IMG/VR virus record: IMGVR_UViG_3300025168_000572
Span: 1-26,236 of that record
Length of the DNA stretch: 26,236 nt
DNA from: a virus
Strand: one strand, 5' to 3'
The translations under genes were made by a program, and so were the position numbers. The notes beneath the pieces are model-generated. The model saw only the letters and a program-made list of their open reading frames with translations, was not told the origin of the DNA and did not search any database. Positions 6,878 through 20,261 of this stretch are shown one piece after another (position 1 is the stretch's first letter; each line of letters begins with the position of its first letter).

Positions 6878-7640
6878 TCTGAAAAGGTATCAGATTGGGA
6901 TCAAAGATAAACTGAAGTGTCCTCATATGATGGCACTTCAGACTTTGCCCACCGAAAAATATACAAAGACTAAAAACTGGATGCCTCTACTCGCCTCGGT
7001 CGAACACATTCGGGGTAAAAAGTTTCCGTGGTCAGGGTACACCAAACAAAGACCAGCGGGTGCAGTGATTGATTGGATCGAACGTACACCCGGTCTTAAG
7101 GAATGGGTCATGTCAGACACTTGCCTAGTTTCACCAAAGAAGTGGCCGAACGCCGTATATAAAGCGTTCCGTTATAATTTAATTCCGTCACCTCACGAGA
7201 TTGCCAACGTAGATATGAATTACAAGTACGCGCCTACAGGGCGTGTATTTCGTAACTTTCTAGTCGTATTATTATACTGTATGGGTATGAGTGTGACGCA
7301 GATAGCTAAGGCGTACGAGACTTCCGAAGCTGAAGTGCATCGTATGATGTACAACGCAATTGAATCACTACACGAAAATCCCCATTACTTACTCTGGGCG
7401 TCGGGGACTGATTTTCGTCGGGCAGTCATCCCTCCGTTTGTAATGCGAATACCTATGAAGACTAGAATGCGATTTACCGCGGCGATTCAATCTAATCCAT
7501 TTCTGGCAGATCACGCATTTGCCGATAAGTTGATTAAGTCACCGCCTTATTTTTCTTACTTGATTTATGGTTCCCCAAAGCGTATGAGACTTACTAAGGG
7601 TTGCCGCATTTACCGCACCGGAGAACAGAATGGCTCGTAG
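6870..7640 (+). CDS. Protein with sigma-4-like HTH, possible regulator, 256 aa
   Basis: Unrecognised as a whole. About two thirds along, FLVVLLYCMGMSVTQIAKAY and the following ETSEAEVHRMMYNAIESL form a convincing helix-turn-helix of the type seen in sigma factor region 4 and other phage regulators (four-helix arrangement, ...TQIAKAYETS..V...). The flanks are basic with many Pro and aromatic residues. I prefer GTG 6870, which has AGGGGG just upstream and overlaps the primase stop by 8 bases; an ATG at 6828 is possible but lacks a good ribosome site. Lying between replication and virion genes, it could control late transcription; a packaging role is the main alternative. No sigma region 2 is visible. 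Confidence 0.7.
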   Translation: MASLKRYQIGIKDKLKCPHMMALQTLPTEKYTKTKNWMPLLASVEHIRGKKFPWSGYTKQRPAGAVIDWIERTPGLKEWVMSDTCLVSPKKWPNAVYKAFRYNLIPSPHEIANVDMNYKYAPTGRVFRNFLVVLLYCMGMSVTQIAKAYETSEAEVHRMMYNAIESLHENPHYLLWASGTDFRRAVIPPFVMRIPMKTRMRFTAAIQSNPFLADHAFADKLIKSPPYFSYLIYGSPKRMRLTKGCRIYRTGEQNGS

Positions 7641-8061
7641 AAATCGAACACCGCAGAGGACGAGCCGGGCGGCACCCACACCGGGGGCCGATTACTCCGC
7701 GTGGCTTATGCTTGTACCAAAAGACAAGCGAAAAGAAATAGCTGACTTTATTCGGGACAACCCGATTCAGGAGTATGATGACTTGGTTTCTTTTGGGTGT
7801 ACCATCATGGCCGCTCTTATGGAAGGTCGTATCACTCCTGTTGTGGCTCAAGAGCTTCGGGCGTGGCACGAACTAAACTTCACCATCCTTGCAACTAAAA
7901 ACTCAGTTGAAGGTTCGCCTCAAGATGCATATACGGATATTGTAACTGCGTTAGTACAGGTGAAGCGGGAAACGAAGAAACTCCGTGGTGATTATTTCAA
8001 TGCGGAAGAGGTCGTAGAAGCCGAGCCTGTCGCGTTGGAGGCTAAAGGTGGCAGAGACTAA
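7630..8061 (+). CDS. Helical hypothetical protein, 143 aa
   Basis: The ATG at 7630 follows GGAGAA and overlaps the preceding gene by 11 bases. The product has a basic, disordered N-terminus (MARRNRTPQRTSRAAPTPG), a helical core of about 100 residues (including DKRKEIADFIRDNPIQEYDD and a long helix ending VQVKRETKKLRGDYF) and an acidic tail. Size, helical core, and position at the head of the virion gene block would fit a small terminase subunit, but the large subunit is 5.8 kb away and no family motif is visible, so I leave the function open. Confidence 0.7.
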   Translation: MARRNRTPQRTSRAAPTPGADYSAWLMLVPKDKRKEIADFIRDNPIQEYDDLVSFGCTIMAALMEGRITPVVAQELRAWHELNFTILATKNSVEGSPQDAYTDIVTALVQVKRETKKLRGDYFNAEEVVEAEPVALEAKGGRD

Positions 8062-8268: not shown

Positions 8269-10449
8269 ATGGCCGATAAGTTTGACGTACAACGTTCGAC
8301 CCCATCAATTGAGTCCTCTATGATGGCTAGGATTAAACAGCAACGAGCGCAGGCAGCGGAAGAAGCAGCCGCAGCGGCTGAAGCTGAGAAGATGACGCAA
8401 ATCCGGTTGGCTAAGAACCAAGAAGGTCCCGGTGCATACGCACAACGTCCCGGCGGTATTCCATACCGAGGCCAACGCGCAGAAGATCAAGCCGTTGCCA
8501 TGGAGCAAGGACTACACCGAGGTCGAATCTCTCCGGGCCAATCCGACATGTCCGCTCGTCTGTACCGAGACGGAATGCGTACCGGAGATATGTCTGGTTA
8601 CTACGATTTTATGGCTACTCAGGACATTGGTAACCTAATTGGCGGGGAAGAAGTGGCCCTCCACGGGCTTGGTCGTGGAATGCAAGCCGCAAGAGCAGCC
8701 GCCGCTGCAAGGGCTACGCGACCTAAAGTAACTTCGGGATCTGTACTTGCAGGAGATTTCGCTCAATCAATGCGCGGTGCGCCCTCAGGTAGTGCTAATA
8801 TGTCCATCACTCCGGAGTACGAAGACGCAATTCGAAACGAAGTGTTCGACACCGCGCCGGATTACTACGCCCGTAAACCTGAAGAGTTTGAAGTTGCTGT
8901 GCAACGTGCCATCGACGATTTTACGAATACAGGTACAATTACTGACGCGAATGCTCCCCGTAGTATGAGTGATGTAGACATCGAGCAGCGCGAAGCTCTG
9001 GACGCTGCCGACGAGACCCGACTGTTTGATGAGGCCGACGAGGCAGACCGAGCCGCGCAGTCACAGGCTGATATGGACACCGAGTTTGATCCGGGGACAG
9101 ATCCCGAGGTCGATGTTCGACACGCTGATGAGGTAGGTGGCGAGGTTACTCCCGATCCCGCCTTTATGGACCCAGCCGTAAGTCTTAACGACATGGATAA
9201 TGTTCGTGGTCTGCAAACCAAGTTACGGGCGGGTAGAGAAGAGCTACTTGAATACTCACTAGACGACTTTGAGAGCGAGGAGTTTAGATTCCACTTCAGG
9301 CAACGAGTTGCAGCACTAGACTCGGCTCTAGAGCGGGCAGACGTGCTCGAAGCCGAACTTCGGCGTGGTGCAGGTGGAGATCCCAGCCGCGCCAACGACA
9401 TTGAGGACGAACTCAACGCGATCGCTAACGAATTTGGTATCCCGAATTGGAATGAAAATGTTGGTACGGATATAGTGAGGTATCCGCCTACTCCAGATCG
9501 GCCTGCACGGGGGATTCAGCGTGACTCTAGCCCTGAGGGACCTCGCGTGAAGGAAGGCGGCAGGACCCGACTGTTTGGTGATGCCGATGTTGACGATGAT
9601 GACGTAAAAAAAGCACACAGGGCAAAAAGGCAAGAAGGTACCAAACGCTACACCGAATCCGGCGGGGTTGTGCCTCACGGCATGTCGGGGAAAGACGCCT
9701 CTGACGCTCGTATAGCTGGTTACCAAGACCGATTGAAGTTTCTGTCTGGGGACAATTACCCTCTGGGCTACCACAATAGAAAACCTGACAGTATGAGTGA
9801 TTACGATTATTTCGAGAATATCGAAAGTCCCTACCGCACTAATTCCGCTTTGGACACTGAGCGGCACGAACTTGCCCAGCGGGCAGAGCTTGACCGTCAA
9901 GCACAAGGGGAACTAGACGCTGAGTTGGACCCTATGCGTGAAACCGAGTTCAAGGGACCGCGCATCGAAGATAAAGATCTTGATGTCGAATTCGACATGT
10001 TCGACATGGACGTTGACTACGAAAATGTACGCGATCACTACTCGGAGCGCCTTTTGGACGGCGAATTCGGTGACTTTCCGGATCTGACTCGCGAACAAGC
10101 TCAGAAGTTTGCTAAAGACGCGGCAGACCGCTACTTCCGAGATCCGAACAGGTTCACTGGTAGTTATCACCCTCTGGGTACAGATTCTCTGAATGAACTC
10201 GCAGATGCTATTCGTGCCGACAAGACGCTAACTATGTCGGACATAGATGCACTCATCGAAGAGCGCCTTGATGCGGCGGGTATTCCCTCTAATCATCCCA
10301 ATAGAATCGATATGGTCGATCGTATTGCTGAAGATCTTGACACTCTTGACAGATTCGACAACGATCCCGACATTCAATACCAAAAAGCTATGCCCGACCT
10401 AAAAGGCGTGGCTCGACGTGCCTTAGAAGGGGACTCAAAAAAAAAGTAG
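8269..10449 (+). CDS. Large acidic virion-region protein ending at a frameshift site, 726 aa
   Basis: Starts at ATG 8269 after AGGAGAATAA. It has an Ala/Glu-rich coiled N-terminus (about 20-45), then long hydrophilic, very acidic and probably flexible stretches with repeated short motifs (DETRLFDEADEADRAAQ near 265-282, later TRLFGDADVDDDDV), and a more folded helical C-terminal part. No enzyme motif was found. Large, charged, low-complexity proteins in this position of short-tailed phages are often internal virion or accessory proteins, but this is inference. The gene ends in GACTCA-A9-G-TAG: the slippery sequence A AAA AAG touches the stop codon and precedes a stem-loop, so a fraction of ribosomes should enter the next frame and make a fusion of about 1098 aa. 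Confidence 0.8.
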   Translation: MADKFDVQRSTPSIESSMMARIKQQRAQAAEEAAAAAEAEKMTQIRLAKNQEGPGAYAQRPGGIPYRGQRAEDQAVAMEQGLHRGRISPGQSDMSARLYRDGMRTGDMSGYYDFMATQDIGNLIGGEEVALHGLGRGMQAARAAAAARATRPKVTSGSVLAGDFAQSMRGAPSGSANMSITPEYEDAIRNEVFDTAPDYYARKPEEFEVAVQRAIDDFTNTGTITDANAPRSMSDVDIEQREALDAADETRLFDEADEADRAAQSQADMDTEFDPGTDPEVDVRHADEVGGEVTPDPAFMDPAVSLNDMDNVRGLQTKLRAGREELLEYSLDDFESEEFRFHFRQRVAALDSALERADVLEAELRRGAGGDPSRANDIEDELNAIANEFGIPNWNENVGTDIVRYPPTPDRPARGIQRDSSPEGPRVKEGGRTRLFGDADVDDDDVKKAHRAKRQEGTKRYTESGGVVPHGMSGKDASDARIAGYQDRLKFLSGDNYPLGYHNRKPDSMSDYDYFENIESPYRTNSALDTERHELAQRAELDRQAQGELDAELDPMRETEFKGPRIEDKDLDVEFDMFDMDVDYENVRDHYSERLLDGEFGDFPDLTREQAQKFAKDAADRYFRDPNRFTGSYHPLGTDSLNELADAIRADKTLTMSDIDALIEERLDAAGIPSNHPNRIDMVDRIAEDLDTLDRFDNDPDIQYQKAMPDLKGVARRALEGDSKKK

Positions 10450-10477
10450 GTAGGCGGCTGGTTGATGTAGAGCCGCC
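10440..10477 (+). promoter_or_regulatory. Programmed -1 ribosomal frameshift signal
   Basis: The heptamer A AAA AAG (10440-10446) is in the correct phase of the upstream gene (codons TCA AAA AAA AAG TAG). It is followed by a 6-base spacer that includes the zero-frame stop and by the stem GGCGGCT (10453-10459) with AGCCGCC (10471-10477), 7 bp with six G-C pairs and an 11-base loop. Slipping back by one base lets translation continue as GTA GGT AGG CGG into the downstream frame, open to 11564. The run of nine A could also cause RNA polymerase slippage with the same outcome. Confidence 0.75.
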
Positions 10478-10532
10478 GCCTCGAACCCCCCGTAAACCGA
10501 CTAAAGCTGACAAATCTCGTGAGCCCGACCTT

Positions 10533-11564
10533 GTGTATTCGTACGATCCCGAGACCGATCCAATTCGGAATCGAAGCATTCGACAAGAGCCAATGTCTAG
10601 TCGGCTAAGTCCAGAAGAGCTTGAAGAATTAGGTATGCGTCCGGGCCGTCAGGATAAATCTGAAGCCGACATCCGGGAATCTCAAGAGAACTTAAAGATT
10701 CAGTCCGACCAAAAGACTGCTTCAGCAGCGGAAGACCGTGCTTATCAGCAGAGACAAGATGCTATTTCTAGGTCGCGAGCACGACGGGCAGACGCATTCT
10801 TAGAAGAAAACAAACCTGAATCTAAAGCTGTACGGCCTGAGGGTGGTGAGATTGAAGAAATCTACAGTACAGAAAACGCAAGAGATAAGTTTATTGAAAA
10901 CGTACGGAGCATTTTAAAATCCCGGGACCCCAATACCGAAGTTAGGTCTGCTCCCTCAGTTCCCACATCAGATCTACCTCCTGCCCCGCCTTTTCGTAGC
11001 TACGGCGTTGACGACTATGGACCAGTAGGCAAAGACGCTGTACGCAGAAGTGACGACGGCCTTCCGATCACCGAGACGACTACAGAGCCTATGCGTACCG
11101 ACCGTACTACAGAACTACCATTTAATCGTGACACAGAAGGGCCGTTCTTTGCCTCTTCGGAAGATTTAACCCGTGACCTTAAGCCGCCTCCTGTTGATAA
11201 GGACGCACCACCTCTTTCCTATAGAGGTAACCCCAAGAGCGACCGTAAGCGATTCCGTCCAGAGAAACCGGAGTTACCTCCGGAGATTGTAGAGCAGTTA
11301 GACGAAGGGGTAGATCCAAAAGACTTATCTGATACTACAGTTTTGGCTCCCGAATTGTACCGCCCACAACCGGGTACTTCTCGAAAATCTGGTCTCGACT
11401 ACCCAGAAGGTACGCCGAAGTTTCCCACCCTAGAGGACAAGATTCGAGTACACTACTTGAATGAACTCCTGAAACAACGGGGGATGAAGCCAAAGAGAGC
11501 CCACAGAATGGCCAGAGACTACGCCTCTGACGCGATTAAAAACTGGGACAAGGGTGAGAAGTAA
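10533..11564 (+). CDS. Downstream frame, probably the -1 frameshift extension, 343 aa or more
   Basis: This frame is open from 10350, through the A9 run, to TAA 11562-11564. The only conventional start near its beginning, GTG 10533, has no ribosome binding site, and protein-like sequence already begins at the slippery site (VGRRLVDVEPPPRTPRKPTK). I therefore read it mainly as a 372-residue extension (10446-11564) of the 726-aa protein. The sequence is hydrophilic, Pro-rich and charged: a Glu/Arg/Gln helix (about 40-90 of the 343-aa frame), then Pro-rich linkers (PPAPPFRS, LKPPPVDKDAPP), and a basic helical end (HYLNELLKQRGMKPKRAHRM) that could bind DNA or another virion protein. Its stop overlaps the next start (TAATG). 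Confidence 0.75.
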   Translation: MYSYDPETDPIRNRSIRQEPMSSRLSPEELEELGMRPGRQDKSEADIRESQENLKIQSDQKTASAAEDRAYQQRQDAISRSRARRADAFLEENKPESKAVRPEGGEIEEIYSTENARDKFIENVRSILKSRDPNTEVRSAPSVPTSDLPPAPPFRSYGVDDYGPVGKDAVRRSDDGLPITETTTEPMRTDRTTELPFNRDTEGPFFASSEDLTRDLKPPPVDKDAPPLSYRGNPKSDRKRFRPEKPELPPEIVEQLDEGVDPKDLSDTTVLAPELYRPQPGTSRKSGLDYPEGTPKFPTLEDKIRVHYLNELLKQRGMKPKRAHRMARDYASDAIKNWDKGEK

Positions 11565-11785
11565 TGCCAAGGGACTATAAAAAAGAGTACGCACAGTACC
11601 ATGGCAACCCCGAGCAGGTGAAAGAGCGTGCTAAACGTAATGCCGCACGCCGCATCCTCGGGCTCAAGAAAGGCGACCCGCGTGAAGCGGACCACAAAAC
11701 TTCTATTAAAAACGGCGGAGGCAATAGCAAAGAAAACCTCCGTGCGGTCAGCCGTACTACAAATAGGAAGAAGTACGATGCCTGA
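11564..11785 (+). CDS. Small HNH-like basic protein, 73 aa
   Basis: The central and C-terminal parts match the core of small phage HNH-type proteins: D43-H44 (EADHKTSIKNGGGNSKENLR), N54, N58 in the NL pair, and N67-R68. The first 40 residues are basic helix (KKEYAQYHGNPEQVKERAKR). The HNH fold cuts DNA with one metal ion, and in phages HNH proteins beside terminases can assist genome packaging. This copy is very short and lacks zinc-binding cysteines, so it may be a minimal nuclease or only a DNA-binding protein. Its start overlaps the previous stop by one base. Confidence 0.65.
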   Translation: MPRDYKKEYAQYHGNPEQVKERAKRNAARRILGLKKGDPREADHKTSIKNGGGNSKENLRAVSRTTNRKKYDA

Positions 11786-11809: not shown

Positions 11810-12106
11810 ATGGCATCACTACAGACTAAGACACGGAAAGCAGCACGCAAGGCCCTCAAGCCCCGGCAGGGCAAGGCACGCGTCAAGCGTACTGCGTCCG
11901 GCAAGAAGGTGTCCTATGGCCAAGCAGGTAAAGCGAAAGGCGGAGGCCCTCGCGTCAAGCCCGGGACGTCTAAGGGCGACTCCTACTGCGCTCGCTCAGC
12001 CGGAATCAAGCGAGGCCTGTCCGCAAAAAAACGTAATGACCCTAACACGCCCAACAACCTGTCGCGTAAGCGTTGGAAGTGCAAGGGCACTAAGAGTATG
12101 AAATAA
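11810..12106 (+). CDS. Very basic small protein, putative DNA-binding, 98 aa
   Basis: About a third of the residues are Lys or Arg. The N-terminal half is a Lys/Ala/Arg-rich tail; the C-terminal half has an ordered-looking motif with GGGPRVKPGTSKGDSYCARS, then NDPNTPNNLSRKRWKC, including two cysteines. I have seen this C-terminal pattern in small uncharacterised phage proteins but cannot name a function. The charge suggests binding to DNA or to the acidic proteins encoded around it. ATG 11810 follows GAGG at 11801. The stop overlaps the next start by one base. Confidence 0.7.
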   Translation: MASLQTKTRKAARKALKPRQGKARVKRTASGKKVSYGQAGKAKGGGPRVKPGTSKGDSYCARSAGIKRGLSAKKRNDPNTPNNLSRKRWKCKGTKSMK

Positions 12107-12393
12107 TGCCTAACGAGATCCCAGACTACGATGACGGTCCCCGTACATTAGAAGACCATGACGCGGCAGAACGAGAACTAAATCGTATATATTCGTCTGC
12201 GGAGTTCAACGAAGTCCCCGCTACGTCTACGCGCCGACATCCCTATCCAAACGAGTTGTCGCGTACAATTACGCACCCAGACGGGTTCGTGGAGTTTGAC
12301 GAAGAGGTGTTTCCTGACCCAGAGCGGGACAAGATTATGTCGGCTACTTTTCAGGCTATGCGTAGAGCCGCTGCGAAACGTGCTATGGAGTAG
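12106..12393 (+). CDS. Acidic hypothetical protein, 95 aa
   Basis: Starts in a TAATG overlap with the basic protein before it. It is hydrophilic and acidic (EIPDYDDGPRTLEDHDAAER) with a short basic helical end (MRRAAAKRAME). No family recognised. The pairing of a strongly basic and an acidic small protein in adjacent coupled genes could mean that they bind each other; this is inference only. Confidence 0.65.
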   Translation: MPNEIPDYDDGPRTLEDHDAAERELNRIYSSAEFNEVPATSTRRHPYPNELSRTITHPDGFVEFDEEVFPDPERDKIMSATFQAMRRAAAKRAME

Positions 12394-12395
12394 TA

Positions 12396-13859
12396 ATGGC
12401 TACTGAGGAAAAAGATCTAACCGAACTAACTCCGGCGGAACGCTCTAAGCGTGTTGCGTCGGACGTATTTTCGCGTGTGCCAAACGCCGCGCAGCACATC
12501 ACCGATGCCGATGTTTACACCGATAAGCCCACCGCGTATCTGACTCCTGCACAGAAAAAGAATATCGCGTATTTGGCTGCTGAGACCGCTGTGAGCATGA
12601 ACCCCATTGGTGGCCTTGCAGTCGGAGCCAAGGACATTACCCAAGGCCTTCTGAACAACGATAAGCTCCAAATTGCTGCTGGGGGCATAGGTATGTTACC
12701 GCTTGTCCCGGGTAACTTGGTTAAGCGGGCGCTCACTGGACCGCGTAATGCGATTAAAAGCAGACTAAGTAGTACAGTGGATGAAGTAGATGAGGCAGCA
12801 GAGGCAGCGGAAGGACTTACGCAGTCTGACATCCAGTTACAGCAGCCCCATGTATACTCCCCTGAGATACGACAACACTATGCCCTTAAGTACAATAAAA
12901 TGTCGTTGGAAGAAGCGGAAGAGCAGTTAATGCAAATACCCACAGCCAGAGGTGCGGCTGCATTTGTTATCGAGAATGCAGCCGATCCCGCCCAGAAGGA
13001 GATCCTCGGAAGAATTATGCCCTTAATCCCCCCAGACGCTACCTTCGAAGTCGTTCAACCGGGCGCGATCCCTTCGGGTCCCGCGACCGCAGTACATCGA
13101 GGCTTCGCTCACGGGCAACACATGGTTGAAATGGACGCACCGGATAGAACCTTGGTCGCCGGTCTTAAAATGACTGGCCAAGGGGTTAATCCGCAAACAA
13201 TGACTCACGAGTTGATTCATTCGGCCACGGCTGCAACCCTCAGGGACGGTAGGTTGGAGTATAACGCGGGTACGGCACTAGCTCGTGCTACTTCGGATTT
13301 AGATGGTTTGTTTGTAGACGTGGCCAAACAACTACAAGTGTTAGAAAAAAAGAAGCTACCCACCGGCCTACCTCCGATAGTGACAATCAATACGGATGAG
13401 TTGTTGGCTTATGGACTAACTGATCCTCGATTTCAAGACGTACTTCGCTCCATGACCGTAACGCACGAAGGTCAAGTTATGTCTGCTTGGACAGCATTTG
13501 TACGCAGACTTAAAAGACTACTCAATCTTGATGATGTTAATGATGACGCACTGTCTCAACTTCTTATACGGTCAGAAAACCTTTTTGACGTTGACCTGCG
13601 GCCCGGTAAAGGGATGAATATCCAATACAAAACCCGTGGATTATCTCAGCCTGATTACCCGAAGATCACAGATTCTTGGGAATTACCCGGCGGTGCCGAA
13701 ACAATGGAAGACCGAATATCTAGGGGCCTCGTTCCCCCAGCTATCGAAAAAAAGTACGAGACATGGAAACGGTCGCAAATGACGGCAGAACAACTTCAAG
13801 ATCTGGCGGCGGAACAAGCCGAGTTACAGGCACTTTTAACCGAGTTTAGTTACGAATGA
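12396..13859 (+). CDS. Zincin-type metalloprotease-like protein, 487 aa
   Basis: The centre carries a zinc protease signature, HELIH at residues 271-275 (QTMTHELIHSATAA), with a likely third zinc ligand at E335 in NTDELLAYGLTD, 60 residues later. H271 and H275 would bind zinc and E272 would activate water. A C-terminal helical segment (SAWTAFVRRLKRLLNL) often accompanies such domains in large phage polyproteins. The N-terminal third contains a Gly/Ala-rich weakly hydrophobic region (about 58-112) that might touch membranes, then an acidic linker. In this position, just upstream of terminase, the protease may be packaged in the virion and act on cell wall, host or capsid proteins; maturation of scaffold or capsid is an alternative. 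The stop overlaps the terminase start (ATGA). Confidence 0.75.
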   Translation: MATEEKDLTELTPAERSKRVASDVFSRVPNAAQHITDADVYTDKPTAYLTPAQKKNIAYLAAETAVSMNPIGGLAVGAKDITQGLLNNDKLQIAAGGIGMLPLVPGNLVKRALTGPRNAIKSRLSSTVDEVDEAAEAAEGLTQSDIQLQQPHVYSPEIRQHYALKYNKMSLEEAEEQLMQIPTARGAAAFVIENAADPAQKEILGRIMPLIPPDATFEVVQPGAIPSGPATAVHRGFAHGQHMVEMDAPDRTLVAGLKMTGQGVNPQTMTHELIHSATAATLRDGRLEYNAGTALARATSDLDGLFVDVAKQLQVLEKKKLPTGLPPIVTINTDELLAYGLTDPRFQDVLRSMTVTHEGQVMSAWTAFVRRLKRLLNLDDVNDDALSQLLIRSENLFDVDLRPGKGMNIQYKTRGLSQPDYPKITDSWELPGGAETMEDRISRGLVPPAIEKKYETWKRSQMTAEQLQDLAAEQAELQALLTEFSYE

Positions 13860-15559
13860 CATTACCTCTTGAAGACGAAGCTTTAGAAGCACTGCGTGAT
13901 CCTTCCATCAGCCTCCGAGCTTATGCCAAGATTATCGACCAGAAGACTGGTAACGAGATGCCGTTCGACCCATTTGCAATTACGGGTCGTCTTCAAGAGA
14001 CAGTAGTGGCTTACTATGCCGAACCACCAAAAACTCAGTTTGGACAGACCAAATGGCTGACTGTGCTTGGCTATCGTCAGGGTGGGAAGAGCCTAACCGC
14101 TGAACTGTGTGGGTATGTCCGTTCTGCGTATACACCCGGACACGACCATGTTTGTATTGCGGATAACCGAGATCGGGCAGAATACCTCCACCGTCGTATC
14201 CACTTAACGCATAGCAGGTGGCCAGAACCTGTACGGGCAAAGACCGTACCAAACCGGGAGGTAAGGCAGTTGACTTTTCAGCACGGCGGGAAGATGCGCG
14301 TGCTGTCTGGAGAATCTGGCGCAGTAGGTATTGGTCAATCACCGGATAGTTTCCACGGGTCAGAGCTTCCGTACTGGCGAAATGCCGGTCATCAGTTCTC
14401 GATGATTTACCCATCAATGATTAACCGCGATCACTCTTTAGTACTTCTGGAGTCTACCCCGGCACCGATCGTTGAGCCATCAACAGAATGGTGGCGGGAC
14501 CATTGTCGTGATGCCAAGTTAGGAATGGGACGTTGGGTCTACGGTTTTTTTCCGTTCTGGGACGGTAAACTGAACGCTCGGCAGTGGCCCAAAGGCGCAC
14601 GACTAGAGAACGAAGAAATTCGACTGCTTGAAAAGTACGGACATCTCGGGCTCAAGAAAGAAAACTTAGCGTTCCGTCGTTTGATGATTGAAACAGATGC
14701 CGAAGTAAGGCGAAACCCGGATTTGTTCCGAGTTTACTACCCATTTGACGACGTTAGTTGCTGGATTGCCTCTGTAGGCTCTGTGTTTCACCCCTCACTA
14801 CTTAAGCGGCACCAAGAATCTAAGCTAATACCATGGGTTGCGCCCTATATGGAGTACGAGCAGCCTGAAGCCGGGGCTGTTTACGCCATGGGCGTTGACC
14901 CTGCGGGCTATGCGGCTAGGGATCACGCGTCTTTTCAGGTGCTAAAGGTGTACGATGGAGAATGGACCCAAGTTGCTGTCTTCGGAGATACCACCGACCC
15001 GGTTAGCTTCGCTAAGAAGATCTACGAGGTCGGCAAGAAATACAACGATGCACTGGTGGTCGTCGAGAGTAACGGTGTTGGTGTTGCTACTTTGGCTTTA
15101 CTTGAAGATGCTGGCTATCCGAATCTCTACTACGAACGAGCCTACAAACCCGGTATTGCTTCCACAGTCAAGTCAATCTCCATGATGCTATCGTACCTTC
15201 AAGATGCACTGAAGGACGAGCTAACTCTGTTTGATGAAGACACAGTAGATCAACTAGGCTCGTACAAAGAAGATAAACAGATTGAACAATCAATTTCTGC
15301 TGAAATTCTACGATCGGGCAAGCCCGGGAAACGACGTGACAGGCACCACTGGGATAAAATATCTGCACTACAATTAGCGTGTGTAGGTGCGCGTAATGCA
15401 CCTCGTAGGTACAAAAAAGAAGGTGCTCCCCCCGGCTTAGAAAATGTTGTATTGTTCCGGGATATGACTTATGATCAAGTACAGACACACTGGAAGAAAA
15501 CTGCTAAGCAGGATAAGAAACGCACATGGCGTAGAAGTCGCTATAGGAGGCGCAAATGA
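13856..15559 (+). CDS. terL: Large terminase subunit (packaging ATPase-nuclease), 567 aa
   Basis: This is the motor that cuts phage DNA and pumps it into the prohead. The ATPase domain has Walker A GYRQGGKS (72-79), a Walker B region with the catalytic acid in FHGSELPYW (E170; Ser replaces the usual Asp), and the coupling motif LLESTP (197-202). The RNase H-like nuclease supplies metal-binding acids D348 in MGVDPA, E404 in VVVESNGVG and D500 in HHWDK. A basic tail ends the protein (KKRTWRRSRYRRRK). Length is normal for the family. It overlaps its upstream and downstream neighbours by 4 bases each. Confidence 0.97.
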   Translation: MTLPLEDEALEALRDPSISLRAYAKIIDQKTGNEMPFDPFAITGRLQETVVAYYAEPPKTQFGQTKWLTVLGYRQGGKSLTAELCGYVRSAYTPGHDHVCIADNRDRAEYLHRRIHLTHSRWPEPVRAKTVPNREVRQLTFQHGGKMRVLSGESGAVGIGQSPDSFHGSELPYWRNAGHQFSMIYPSMINRDHSLVLLESTPAPIVEPSTEWWRDHCRDAKLGMGRWVYGFFPFWDGKLNARQWPKGARLENEEIRLLEKYGHLGLKKENLAFRRLMIETDAEVRRNPDLFRVYYPFDDVSCWIASVGSVFHPSLLKRHQESKLIPWVAPYMEYEQPEAGAVYAMGVDPAGYAARDHASFQVLKVYDGEWTQVAVFGDTTDPVSFAKKIYEVGKKYNDALVVVESNGVGVATLALLEDAGYPNLYYERAYKPGIASTVKSISMMLSYLQDALKDELTLFDEDTVDQLGSYKEDKQIEQSISAEILRSGKPGKRRDRHHWDKISALQLACVGARNAPRRYKKEGAPPGLENVVLFRDMTYDQVQTHWKKTAKQDKKRTWRRSRYRRRK

Positions 15560-16233: not shown

Positions 16234-18029
16234 TGCCACTTAATGGACAACAAATTCAAGGAATCATTAAGACACATAAAACCAAAGCGGGCAAGGATCG
16301 GCAAGACTGGGACCGATGGCGTGCGTGGTACGCTTCAGAGTATTGGGGGCAACCTTCTGACCAGCCCTCGGGCTCCATCCCTATTGGCGGTAACTTGTCT
16401 GAAGGTATTAGCTTCGAGACAAACTACCCTTACGCTTTTATTGATACGATGATTGCAAATGTCTGCCCACAGAACCCAAAAGTCACTGTGATGGCGCGTC
16501 AAGAAGCTCTGAAACCAGCAGGTCAGTTCCGCGAAGCGTTGATTGATGACGTATTTCGACGTAATAAGTTACACACTATTTTGTGGAAAACAGCAACTAG
16601 CACTGCAATTTGCGGTCGCGGCTTCGTTAAAACAGTTTGGAACTTTAGGAAAAAAAGTGCTGAGTTGTTTTCCGTAGACCCCCGACAGGTGTTTTTTGAT
16701 ATGTCGGCAAGTCGCTGGGAAGACATACGTTATCTTGTTGAGGTTACGGTTCTGACCGAAGCTGAATTTAAAACACGCACAAAATCTGCGAAAAACAACA
16801 AGTCTCACTACAACAAAAAAGTAGCGGAGAAAGCCAAGTTTCTTGGGTACCCTACATGGCTTAAAGACAGCAGTCAGGGCAGCATGGTCAATGCGGCGTC
16901 TACGGATGTATACAAATGGGTCACAGTGTACGAAGTCTATGATTTTGAGGGTGAGGGTAGGTACTACCACTACCTAGAAAATGTAGAGGAGCCTTTGTTT
17001 GAGGGCGAGCTACCATACCGGTACATCCGCAACCCGTTTACATTGTTGACGTTCAACGAGAACATGACAGACCTCGCAGGCTTGTCGGACATTAAGTTGA
17101 TCCAATCACTTCAAGAGCGTTTGAATGAGATTGATACCCTTGAGCTATGGCACGCACATACCTCTACGCCTGTTATGCTCGTTAATACTGCACTCGCGGA
17201 CAACCCTGAGGATATTCTAACTGCACTACAAGAGGCCAATCAACCGGGCTCTATGGTCGCAGTGCAGGGTAAGGCCAGTGCTCCCTTAGGAGATATTATT
17301 GGACAAACCCCCATGCCAGCCATGTCGCCCGCCTTTGACGAAATGCGTGCGCGATGTAATCAAGTCATTGAGTTTATCCTCGGCATCCCTCAGTATAGTC
17401 GGGGGGTTGTGGGTGTGGCGGACGTTGCTACGGAGGTTGCGCTTGCCGACACTGCGACCCGAACAAGAAACGGACGAAGAATAAAGCACGTTGAAGATAT
17501 TATTCGAGCAATGTCTCAACGTATCGTCGCTGTGTACGAAGAGTTTTTACCTTCAGACACTCGGCTTCCTATCCGTTTAACAGACAGCCAAGAAGTACTA
17601 GAAGTTACTCGGGAAACATTAAAGTTTCGGGATGAGCGTGATCCGGGACAGATGCCACTAGACTACGACTACGAGACTATTCCTTATTCTCCTACGGAGA
17701 ATCATCGTCTTGTTCAGTTACAGAAGTTACAACAGTACATGCCACTATTGCTACAATCACCTGCTGTAGACCAAGAGAAGCTAATTATGAAGCTACTTGA
17801 TCTGCTCCAAATTCGTGACATTCTGGCTCCTCCGAAGCCTCCTGCACCTCCGGGACAACCTCCCGGAATGCCGGGGATGCCTCCGGGAATGCCGGGAATG
17901 CCCGGAATGCCTCCCGGAATGCCTCCCGCACCCGGCGGCGACACTATTGCAACCGGGGCTTTGCCCGCAGGTACAGAACCCAGCCCCGTTCCGACCCCAA
18001 TGGGTGGACCGGGTAACCCCATGATCTAG
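16233..18029 (+). CDS. Portal protein with Pro/Gly/Met-rich tail, 598 aa
   Basis: The portal forms the dodecameric ring through which DNA enters and leaves the head. Support: position after terminase; length; a typical N-terminal region (ETNYPYAFIDTMIANVCPQN); the wing/stem pattern (SVDPRQVFFDMSASRWEDI, then LAGLSDIKLIQSLQERLNEI); and the clip/stem helices around FILGIPQYSRGVVGVADVAT. The last 80 or so residues are unusual: a collagen-like array of PPGM, PGM and PPG repeats (PPGMPGMPPGMPGMPGMPPG) followed by a Gly/Pro tail. That part should be unstructured and may thread into the head or bind other proteins. The start overlaps the previous stop. Confidence 0.93.
   Translation: MPLNGQQIQGIIKTHKTKAGKDRQDWDRWRAWYASEYWGQPSDQPSGSIPIGGNLSEGISFETNYPYAFIDTMIANVCPQNPKVTVMARQEALKPAGQFREALIDDVFRRNKLHTILWKTATSTAICGRGFVKTVWNFRKKSAELFSVDPRQVFFDMSASRWEDIRYLVEVTVLTEAEFKTRTKSAKNNKSHYNKKVAEKAKFLGYPTWLKDSSQGSMVNAASTDVYKWVTVYEVYDFEGEGRYYHYLENVEEPLFEGELPYRYIRNPFTLLTFNENMTDLAGLSDIKLIQSLQERLNEIDTLELWHAHTSTPVMLVNTALADNPEDILTALQEANQPGSMVAVQGKASAPLGDIIGQTPMPAMSPAFDEMRARCNQVIEFILGIPQYSRGVVGVADVATEVALADTATRTRNGRRIKHVEDIIRAMSQRIVAVYEEFLPSDTRLPIRLTDSQEVLEVTRETLKFRDERDPGQMPLDYDYETIPYSPTENHRLVQLQKLQQYMPLLLQSPAVDQEKLIMKLLDLLQIRDILAPPKPPAPPGQPPGMPGMPPGMPGMPGMPPGMPPAPGGDTIATGALPAGTEPSPVPTPMGGPGNPMI
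17849..17938 (+). repeat. Short degenerate repeats coding the portal PGM tail
   Basis: Repeats of CCTCCGGGAATG, CCGGGAATG and CCCGGAATG in changing order encode Pro-Pro-Gly-Met and Pro-Gly-Met units. Such arrays expand and contract by replication slippage, so their length probably varies among relatives. Confidence 0.8.
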
Positions 18030-19001: not shown

Positions 19002-19025
19002 ACATCATTTAATGAGGTGACTTCT

Positions 19026-19379
19026 ATGCCTATGATGGACAAACTACTTTCTGACCTGAACAACAATCCTCCCCAGACTCCTGACGAGTTGGAAGACATG
19101 CTAGCCTCCACGGGCTACAGTCTTGCACCTTCTGAAGGCGAAATGGCGATGGACGGTGATATGGCTATGGAAGAAGAGTACGCCGAGGACATGGGTCCTG
19201 ACGATATGGGCATGGAAGAAATGGAAATGGGCATGGGTGAAATGCCGCCTGAAGGTGCTATGGACATGACCATTATTGAGGAGCAGATGCCAATGCCTGA
19301 GGACGCCACTCCAAGGGCACGACGTATGAAAGACACGTTGCGTGCTGCGCGTAACGCACTGGGATCTCGGGAGGGGTAA
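19026..19379 (+). CDS. Methionine- and acid-rich protein, 117 aa
   Basis: I choose ATG 19026, five bases after GAGGTGA; GTG 19017 lies within that ribosome site and is unlikely. The middle (about 38-95) is an extreme low-complexity run of Met, Glu, Asp and Gly (for example MAMEEEYAEDMGPDDMGMEE), followed by a short basic helix (ARRMKDTLRAARNALGSREG). Folded structure is unlikely except at the ends. Next to the scaffold gene, which is also acidic with a basic C-terminus, it could be an assembly helper. The Met-rich segment could also bind metal ions such as copper, but this is speculation. Confidence 0.65.
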   Translation: MPMMDKLLSDLNNNPPQTPDELEDMLASTGYSLAPSEGEMAMDGDMAMEEEYAEDMGPDDMGMEEMEMGMGEMPPEGAMDMTIIEEQMPMPEDATPRARRMKDTLRAARNALGSREG

Positions 19380-20261
19380 ATGGGTGAAGAACTAGAGGCA
19401 GGGGCTGCTCCTGCTGAATCGATTGAAGCTGCTCCAGTGGAGGCGGCTACGGCAGATGTGGCTCCTGCCGAGGCGGCAGAGCCGTCTCCTGTGGAGGTGG
19501 CGGAATCTGTGGATCCCTCCCTCCCCGCAGAAGAGGACGCGGTTGAAGCGGCTCCTGTCTCTTATCCCTCACCCGAAGATTTCGGTTGGGACGAATGGGA
19601 AGGGGACACAGACGGCCTACCAGAAGAGCTACGGCCATGGGGACAGAAATTCGGGGATTACTACAATCAACGAATGCTCACGGCCCAACAACAAATGGCG
19701 AAGACTAAAGAAGTCTACGACGCCATCCTAAATGGAAATTCCGACCCTCGACTGAAGCACTTAGAATCTTCGGTCGGAGAGTGGGAAAACAAATACACTG
19801 GCCTTACGGGTCAGTACGAGTACCTACAGCGTCAGTTTACTCAGTATCAATCTGAGGTAACGCAGGCGCTGGAGGCGGAAGCCGACGCTTACGCCGAAGA
19901 GTTCGCGGAAAGTAATCCCGACCTCTTTAACAATGAGGAACTCTCTACAGTATTTGCAGATTTGCTTGAAGATAATTGGATTCTTGAACATGCTGCGGTA
20001 GCTGCGCGTCTACCAAAACATTTACGAGAAATAGCAAAGCAGGCTAAGGTCGATGGGGTCCCAGACTCTTACGCCCTTAAACTGGCTCAGGGCGCGAAGA
20101 GCAGGCCCGCTAAACCCCGCCCGGGTGCGGCATTGACGGCAGGGGCTACAACCCCGGCGCGTTCATCGGAGCAAGTTAGCTTGCCCGATAACAAGCCGAT
20201 GTCCCTGCAAGAATTCCGTAAGCAAGTAGCGCGTAACGCCTTATCAAATAAAAGGAGATAA
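19380..20261 (+). CDS. Scaffolding-like protein, 293 aa
   Basis: Located directly before the major capsid gene, where scaffold genes lie, and with the expected composition. It has an Ala/Glu/Pro-rich acidic N-terminus (about 1-70, with repeats of AAPVEAA type), a helical coiled-coil centre (about 95-205, including RQFTQYQSEVTQALEAEADA) and a basic C-terminal helix (SLQEFRKQVARNALSNKRR), the part that in other scaffolds binds the capsid protein. It would guide assembly of the prohead and then leave. ATG 19380 follows GGGAGGGGTAA. No protease domain is fused to it. Confidence 0.75.
   Translation: MGEELEAGAAPAESIEAAPVEAATADVAPAEAAEPSPVEVAESVDPSLPAEEDAVEAAPVSYPSPEDFGWDEWEGDTDGLPEELRPWGQKFGDYYNQRMLTAQQQMAKTKEVYDAILNGNSDPRLKHLESSVGEWENKYTGLTGQYEYLQRQFTQYQSEVTQALEAEADAYAEEFAESNPDLFNNEELSTVFADLLEDNWILEHAAVAARLPKHLREIAKQAKVDGVPDSYALKLAQGAKSRPAKPRPGAALTAGATTPARSSEQVSLPDNKPMSLQEFRKQVARNALSNKRR

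Follow-up and report, generated by a model that had tools for sequence, protein, structure and literature searches.

How might region B, a long open stretch in the -1 frame behind gene A, come to be translated? Both lie in the window analysed here, a 26,236-base IMG/VR record classed as linear. Gene A (8269-10449, + strand) begins with an ATG behind a good ribosome site, AGGAGA, and encodes a protein of 726 aa whose zero-frame product terminates ...SKKK*. Region B (10446-11564, +), which we read as an extension of A, runs for 372 codons before a TAA, and its end overlaps the ATG of the downstream HNH endonuclease-like gene (11564-11785, +) as TAATG. The original prediction was that a -1 ribosomal frameshift joins the two. 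We conclude that the site is probably a dnaX-type programmed -1 ribosomal frameshift signal, giving A together with a 1098-aa A-B fusion, and recoding of either kind, ribosomal or transcriptional, we consider quite likely.

Sequence elements of the candidate recoding site

Read base for base, gene A ends in the codons TCA-AAA-AAA-AAG-TAG (10435-10449, +). These contain a run of nine A (A9, 10437-10445, +), which is the longest A/T run and the sole A or T run of at least 8 within the window, and which is a candidate for slippage by the ribosome and also by RNA polymerase. In phase with gene A lies the heptamer A_AAA_AAG (10440-10446, +), of the strongly slippery X_XXY_YYZ type, and immediately 3' of it the zero-frame stop TAG (10447-10449, +). 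A spacer of 6 nt, TAGGTA, leads to a stem-loop (10453-10477, +) in which GGCGGCT (10453-10459) and AGCCGCC (10471-10477) can form a GC-rich stem of 7 bp with an 11-nt loop and a predicted energy of -12.8 kcal/mol. Signals of the dnaX type have a stable stem-loop about 5-9 nt downstream, a range that includes the 6-nt spacer found here. Heptamer, spacer and stem had all been named in the original prediction; they are real, and their coordinates and lengths were right base for base.

What had been overlooked is a Shine-Dalgarno-like AAGGGG (10427-10432, +), 7 nt 5' of the heptamer and with no start codon behind it. Its pairing with the 3' end of 16S rRNA (-7.9 kcal/mol) is among the best 4.6% of coding positions, and it may serve as a 5' stimulator. 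The SD-like element of dnaX is spaced ~10 nt from its heptamer, and the shorter distance of 7 nt weakens the frameshift reading.

The stretch 10350-11561 is free of stops in the -1 frame, the preceding stop being at 10347, and codon use in this frame is coding-like from the slip site onwards. The expectation that this frame would be open across the site and encode plausible protein at once is thus borne out, as are the predicted product lengths, a short form of 726 aa beside a fusion of 1098 aa (726+372; 123 kDa).

Tests against chance

The 42 nt that begin after the first four bases 3' of the heptamer fold with -18.4 kcal/mol. This is in the lowest 0.7% among the window's 3341 coding positions, and an equally strong fold was obtained in 0.56% of synonymous codon reshuffles that kept the amino acids of the -1 frame. 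Stems of 7 bp that are GC-rich and at comparable distance occur at only 18 of this strand's 26176 positions. Codon use in the -1 frame between 10446 and 10532 scores 0.213 bits per codon, close to the median for true genes, and only 0.2-0.4% of wrong-frame windows score as well; under a stricter null, consisting of stop-free wrong-frame windows on both strands, this proportion is 2.7%. The likeliest position of the frame change is 10429-10447.

Taken by itself the A9 run is unsurprising, since 0.55 such runs are expected per window when the window's genes are shuffled synonymously. Unlike A9 alone, the combination of elements at the site exceeds chance: a slippery heptamer close to a stop, a strong stem and an extended -1 frame that has no start nearby are found together only here among 2746 distinct ORF ends, taken from 124 related loci plus the window. 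Those conserved genes of the window that have close homologues are intact and full length, and no general indel problem is visible.

Homologue searches and genome context

Searches for A and B returned no homologues in viral contigs, genome contigs or cultured phages, and none in the 124 related loci by lax tblastn; family matches were likewise absent in Pfam, PHROGs and NCBIfam, and the PDB held no homologue. The sole scan match (L002) covers 31 residues in an unrelated contig and was rejected as a homologue. We found no near-identical contig spanning the junction, whatever its A count, and Rfam gave near the site just a sub-threshold chance match on the opposite strand. Structure prediction of A without an alignment reached a mean pLDDT of 52 and is not interpretable.

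A and B occupy a slot that is bounded on the left by a conserved 143-aa gene (7630-8061, +; 56-90% identity among close relatives), a putative small terminase (TerS-like), and on the right by the large terminase (13856-15559, +). In the window this slot contains A, B and the HNH gene, together with small genes and a 487-aa protein (12396-13859, +) with similarity to part of the N4 virion RNA polymerase (vRNAP) profile (E 1.9e-16). The 487-aa protein stands alone in the window, aligns to profile positions 2008-2248 and carries a HELIH motif. Among relatives the slot is hypervariable, measuring between 0.05 and 6.5 kb, and often holds one long single-frame ORF of 830-1950 aa that is unrelated to A/B. 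The original description of two genes of an acidic virion region applies in part: A is strongly acidic (pI 4.6), but B is not (pI 5.6), and the pair, which fills a hypervariable, cargo-like slot, does not consist of ordinary structural genes.

The Pfam domain ART-PolyVal was present in two of the eight slot proteins examined from relatives. This domain marks polyvalent proteins, and for many of these packaging and injection have been proposed (PMC5512222). In the slot homologous to that of A/B, this ADP-ribosyltransferase domain is found at L038:6313-9354, which also has a GNAT acetyltransferase-like match, and at L040:6291-7814.

The terminase and the portal have many relatives among IMG/VR contigs, and the portal matches the P22/SU10 portal families. 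No match to the portal was found in the cultured phage collection, where the terminase had distant matches, for example in Roseobacter phage CRP-7 (27% across roughly half of the protein, E 1e-17), and no terminase relative was found in genome contigs. We infer that the phage group is probably marine. The C-terminus of the portal (17820-18026) is a long Pro/Gly/Met-rich stretch (PPGMPGMPPGMPGMPG...) that takes varied forms in relatives.

A terminal motif shared with the putative scaffold

Shortly before its stop, gene A carries the codons for MPDLKGVARRAL (10390-10425, +; residues 708-719), which resemble the C-terminus of the putative scaffold and of other proteins of the group. The C-terminus of A reads ...KAMPDLKGVARRALEGDSKKK, and the stop comes 7 residues after VARRAL. 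The putative scaffold (19380-20261, +) is encoded immediately before the major head protein and ends in a C-terminal helix, ...EFRKQVARNALSNKRR, in which R280 and A287 do not vary across 33 orthologues. No PHROG matches it, and we call it a scaffold from its position, its helical build and its tail, which is predicted to form a helix after a flexible linker.

A core pattern, [VAI]A[RK][RNKDTL][AVT][LMF], is repeated among unrelated proteins of the group, at their C-termini. This pattern was defined post hoc, after the tails (including that of A) had been seen, and, with A itself counted, it occurs in the last 32 residues in 12 out of 238 protein clusters, as compared with 18 out of 1739 windows from protein interiors (scaffold relatives excluded; Fisher p 8e-5), whereas shuffled tails would be expected to give 0.2 clusters. 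As several of the interior cases fall in the first 35 residues, the motif seems to be terminal in general. When a 14-column profile was built from scaffolds alone, the tail of A was not singled out; a one-residue spacing difference before VARRAL accounts for this miss, and the short core pattern did find the tail. A longer form, [LM]PDxxxVARxxL, is present in a few proteins, including ones that have it at the C-terminus (L023), 14 residues from the end (L039) and ~90 residues from the end (L016).

Motifs like VARRAL or AARNAL are found at the C-terminus, and sometimes at the N-terminus, of many unrelated group proteins. The window sites are 19380-20261, 10390-10425, 12106-12393 and 19017-19379, and those in relatives are L012:3450-9302, L023:40-2925, L038:6313-9354, L040:5519-6103 and L088:12667-13407. 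A module of the form YPNELSRTxTxPDGFVEFDEEVFPDPERD, followed by the terminal motif, stands on differing N-termini in relatives (window 12106-12393; L005:3586-4278, L008:6069-6761, L016:2317-2763). In L016:2-2317 a single frame encodes a HEXXH peptidase-like region, the motif as PDTNAVARRALE and then a C-terminal domain, which in L038 is a separate gene (9435-10001; 61% identity over 71 aa), an arrangement of modular cargo genes with the motif at the junction.

The scaffold of phage P22 binds coat via its basic C-terminal region, and cargo fused to it loads capsids in engineering work (PMC9962691). The tail described here has in common with it a basic C-terminal helix on a helical, flexible protein; it differs in that a similar motif occurs naturally on several unrelated proteins, with binding that is putative. 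By this analogy, we regard the terminal motif, in the form MPDLKGVARRALEGDSKKK, as a putative head-loading motif. Since the motif is enriched at natural C-termini and stands 7 residues before the stop, the TAG of gene A resembles a genuine protein end. The 726-aa short form is probably a real product and is possibly packaged.

Alternative explanations for the frame change

Although -1 frameshifting is the best supported reading and its elements are real, A9 also fits transcriptional slippage, in which RNA polymerase would add one A in the run and normal translation would produce the fusion, alone or along with ribosomal slippage. Genes of this kind change frame at a run of 9 or more A or T, such as A9 (10437-10445), and slippage at runs of 9 A or 9 T is efficient and established in bacteria (PMC5009743). 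With one A added to A9, whether in the transcript or the genome, the protein encoded is the same 1098-aa one as after a -1 shift. Because the fusion is identical under each of these routes, analysis of the product or of its junction peptide cannot tell the mechanisms apart. Transcriptional slippage, however, requires neither a stem nor a G right after the run, and the site has both a strong stem at the ribosomal spacing and an SD-like element, so we hold this route to be improbable. Separate initiation of B is the least probable of the alternatives. Here A would stop at TAG and B would reinitiate at CTG 10458, GTG 10533 or ATG 10593/10635, a possibility that gains something from the closely packed genes common in the group and from the SD pairing at CTG 10458 (-6.0 kcal/mol). 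CTG is nevertheless rare as a start, and this one lies inside the stem. The only ATG, GTG or TTG able to start B nearly whole is the GTG at 10533-10535 (+), which has no ribosome site (SD pairing just -2.0 kcal/mol) and is preceded by codons that are already coding-like; together with the two ATGs it has almost no SD (-1.7 to -2.1 kcal/mol), and a gap of 83 nt would be atypical for neighbouring genes in this stretch. The earlier judgement that B has no credible start thus holds, and coding in the -1 frame without a start of its own is a further feature of dnaX-type sites.

The true or ancestral gene could also have been a single ORF of ~1098 aa, with one of ten A lost, or two gained, in the contig or in the virus, whether by an error of sequencing or assembly or by mutation. 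The frame break indeed falls in the window's longest A/T run, A10 and A7 each restore one ORF, and B is without its own start. In the same slot relatives hold a single long ORF, and one of them (L016) has the same motif within a single-frame protein, ~90 aa before its end; it is these single-frame slot ORFs of 830-1950 aa that keep an indel in contention. Published base rates point the same way and weaken the frameshift reading, as unconserved orphan frame transitions in genomes are mostly gene overlaps, errors or indels (PMC3711429). Three features, however, are not expected from an indel: a stem that ranks in the lowest 0.6-0.7%, a stop in phase immediately after the heptamer, and a motif of natural C-termini 7 residues ahead of that stop. 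The other conserved genes of the window are, moreover, unbroken. We therefore think an indel unlikely.

Comparison with known systems

The site shares with dnaX of E. coli the A_AAA_AAG heptamer, a 3' stem-loop and, as a candidate stimulator, a 5' SD-like element. A zero-frame stop directly after the site, with the longer product made by frameshifting, is a layout reported for some dnaX genes, such as a Chlorobium candidate (PMC5009743, PMC3711429). A/B differs from dnaX in being a phage orphan gene with a closer SD-like element (7 nt) and a predicted site. Extension of a C-terminus by -1 (or +1) recoding is also found in gene 10 of T7/T3, in Lactobacillus phage A2 and in Listeria PSA/A118, where the extended protein is a major head or tail protein that often gains an Ig-like domain (PMC5009743); A/B, in contrast, is distinct from the major head protein, and B has no family match. 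The tail assembly chaperones G/GT likewise combine a phage -1 frameshift with a short and a long product. An assignment of A/B to that class was rejected, given that the site falls between the TerS-like gene and TerL and not beside a tape measure gene, in a phage with a P22/SU10-type portal. In Alteromonas virus vB_AspP-H4/4, a marine podovirus, a -1 shift is predicted to yield an internal virion protein; other genes are involved, and that case, too, is prediction only (PMC5658483).

Polyvalent proteins (Iyer et al. 2017, PMC5512222) resemble the slot in the large hypervariable ORFs of relatives, two of them with ART-PolyVal, and in the N4-vRNAP-type HEXXH protein that is a near neighbour of A/B. 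We did not class A/B themselves as polyvalent, as neither A nor B has a recognised effector domain (Pfam, PHROG, NCBIfam).

Proposed mechanism and implications

Under -1 ribosomal frameshifting, the majority of ribosomes would translate A to TAG and release the 726-aa acidic protein with its scaffold-like terminal motif. Some, on pausing at the SD-like element and stem-loop, would slip back so that AAA-AAG is exchanged for AAA-AAA, and would go on in the -1 frame to make the 1098-aa A-B fusion. We infer that slippage occurs at some efficiency, and that A and A-B may be head cargo or minor virion proteins in a set ratio. The mechanism itself is already known, and A/B would be a new and unusual member with a suggested function in the virion. 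A more specific version, which we offer as speculation and think rather unlikely, is that motif-tagged zero-frame A is loaded into the head while the -1 product adds a second domain, with the ribosome setting the mix of tagged cargo in the virion. That frameshifting here might control the loading of cargo instead of tail assembly is equally a tentative idea.

To conclude, if the signal is real, programmed frameshifting would reach an orphan gene of an uncultured phage group, in a cargo-like slot that changes fast, a use beyond its usual settings of tail chaperones and coat proteins, and would give two products with a testable ratio. The shift would fall right behind a tail motif that is also carried by the group's probable head-scaffold protein, and this shared terminal motif at the shift site offers a concrete hypothesis for how proteins may be loaded into the heads of these phages.
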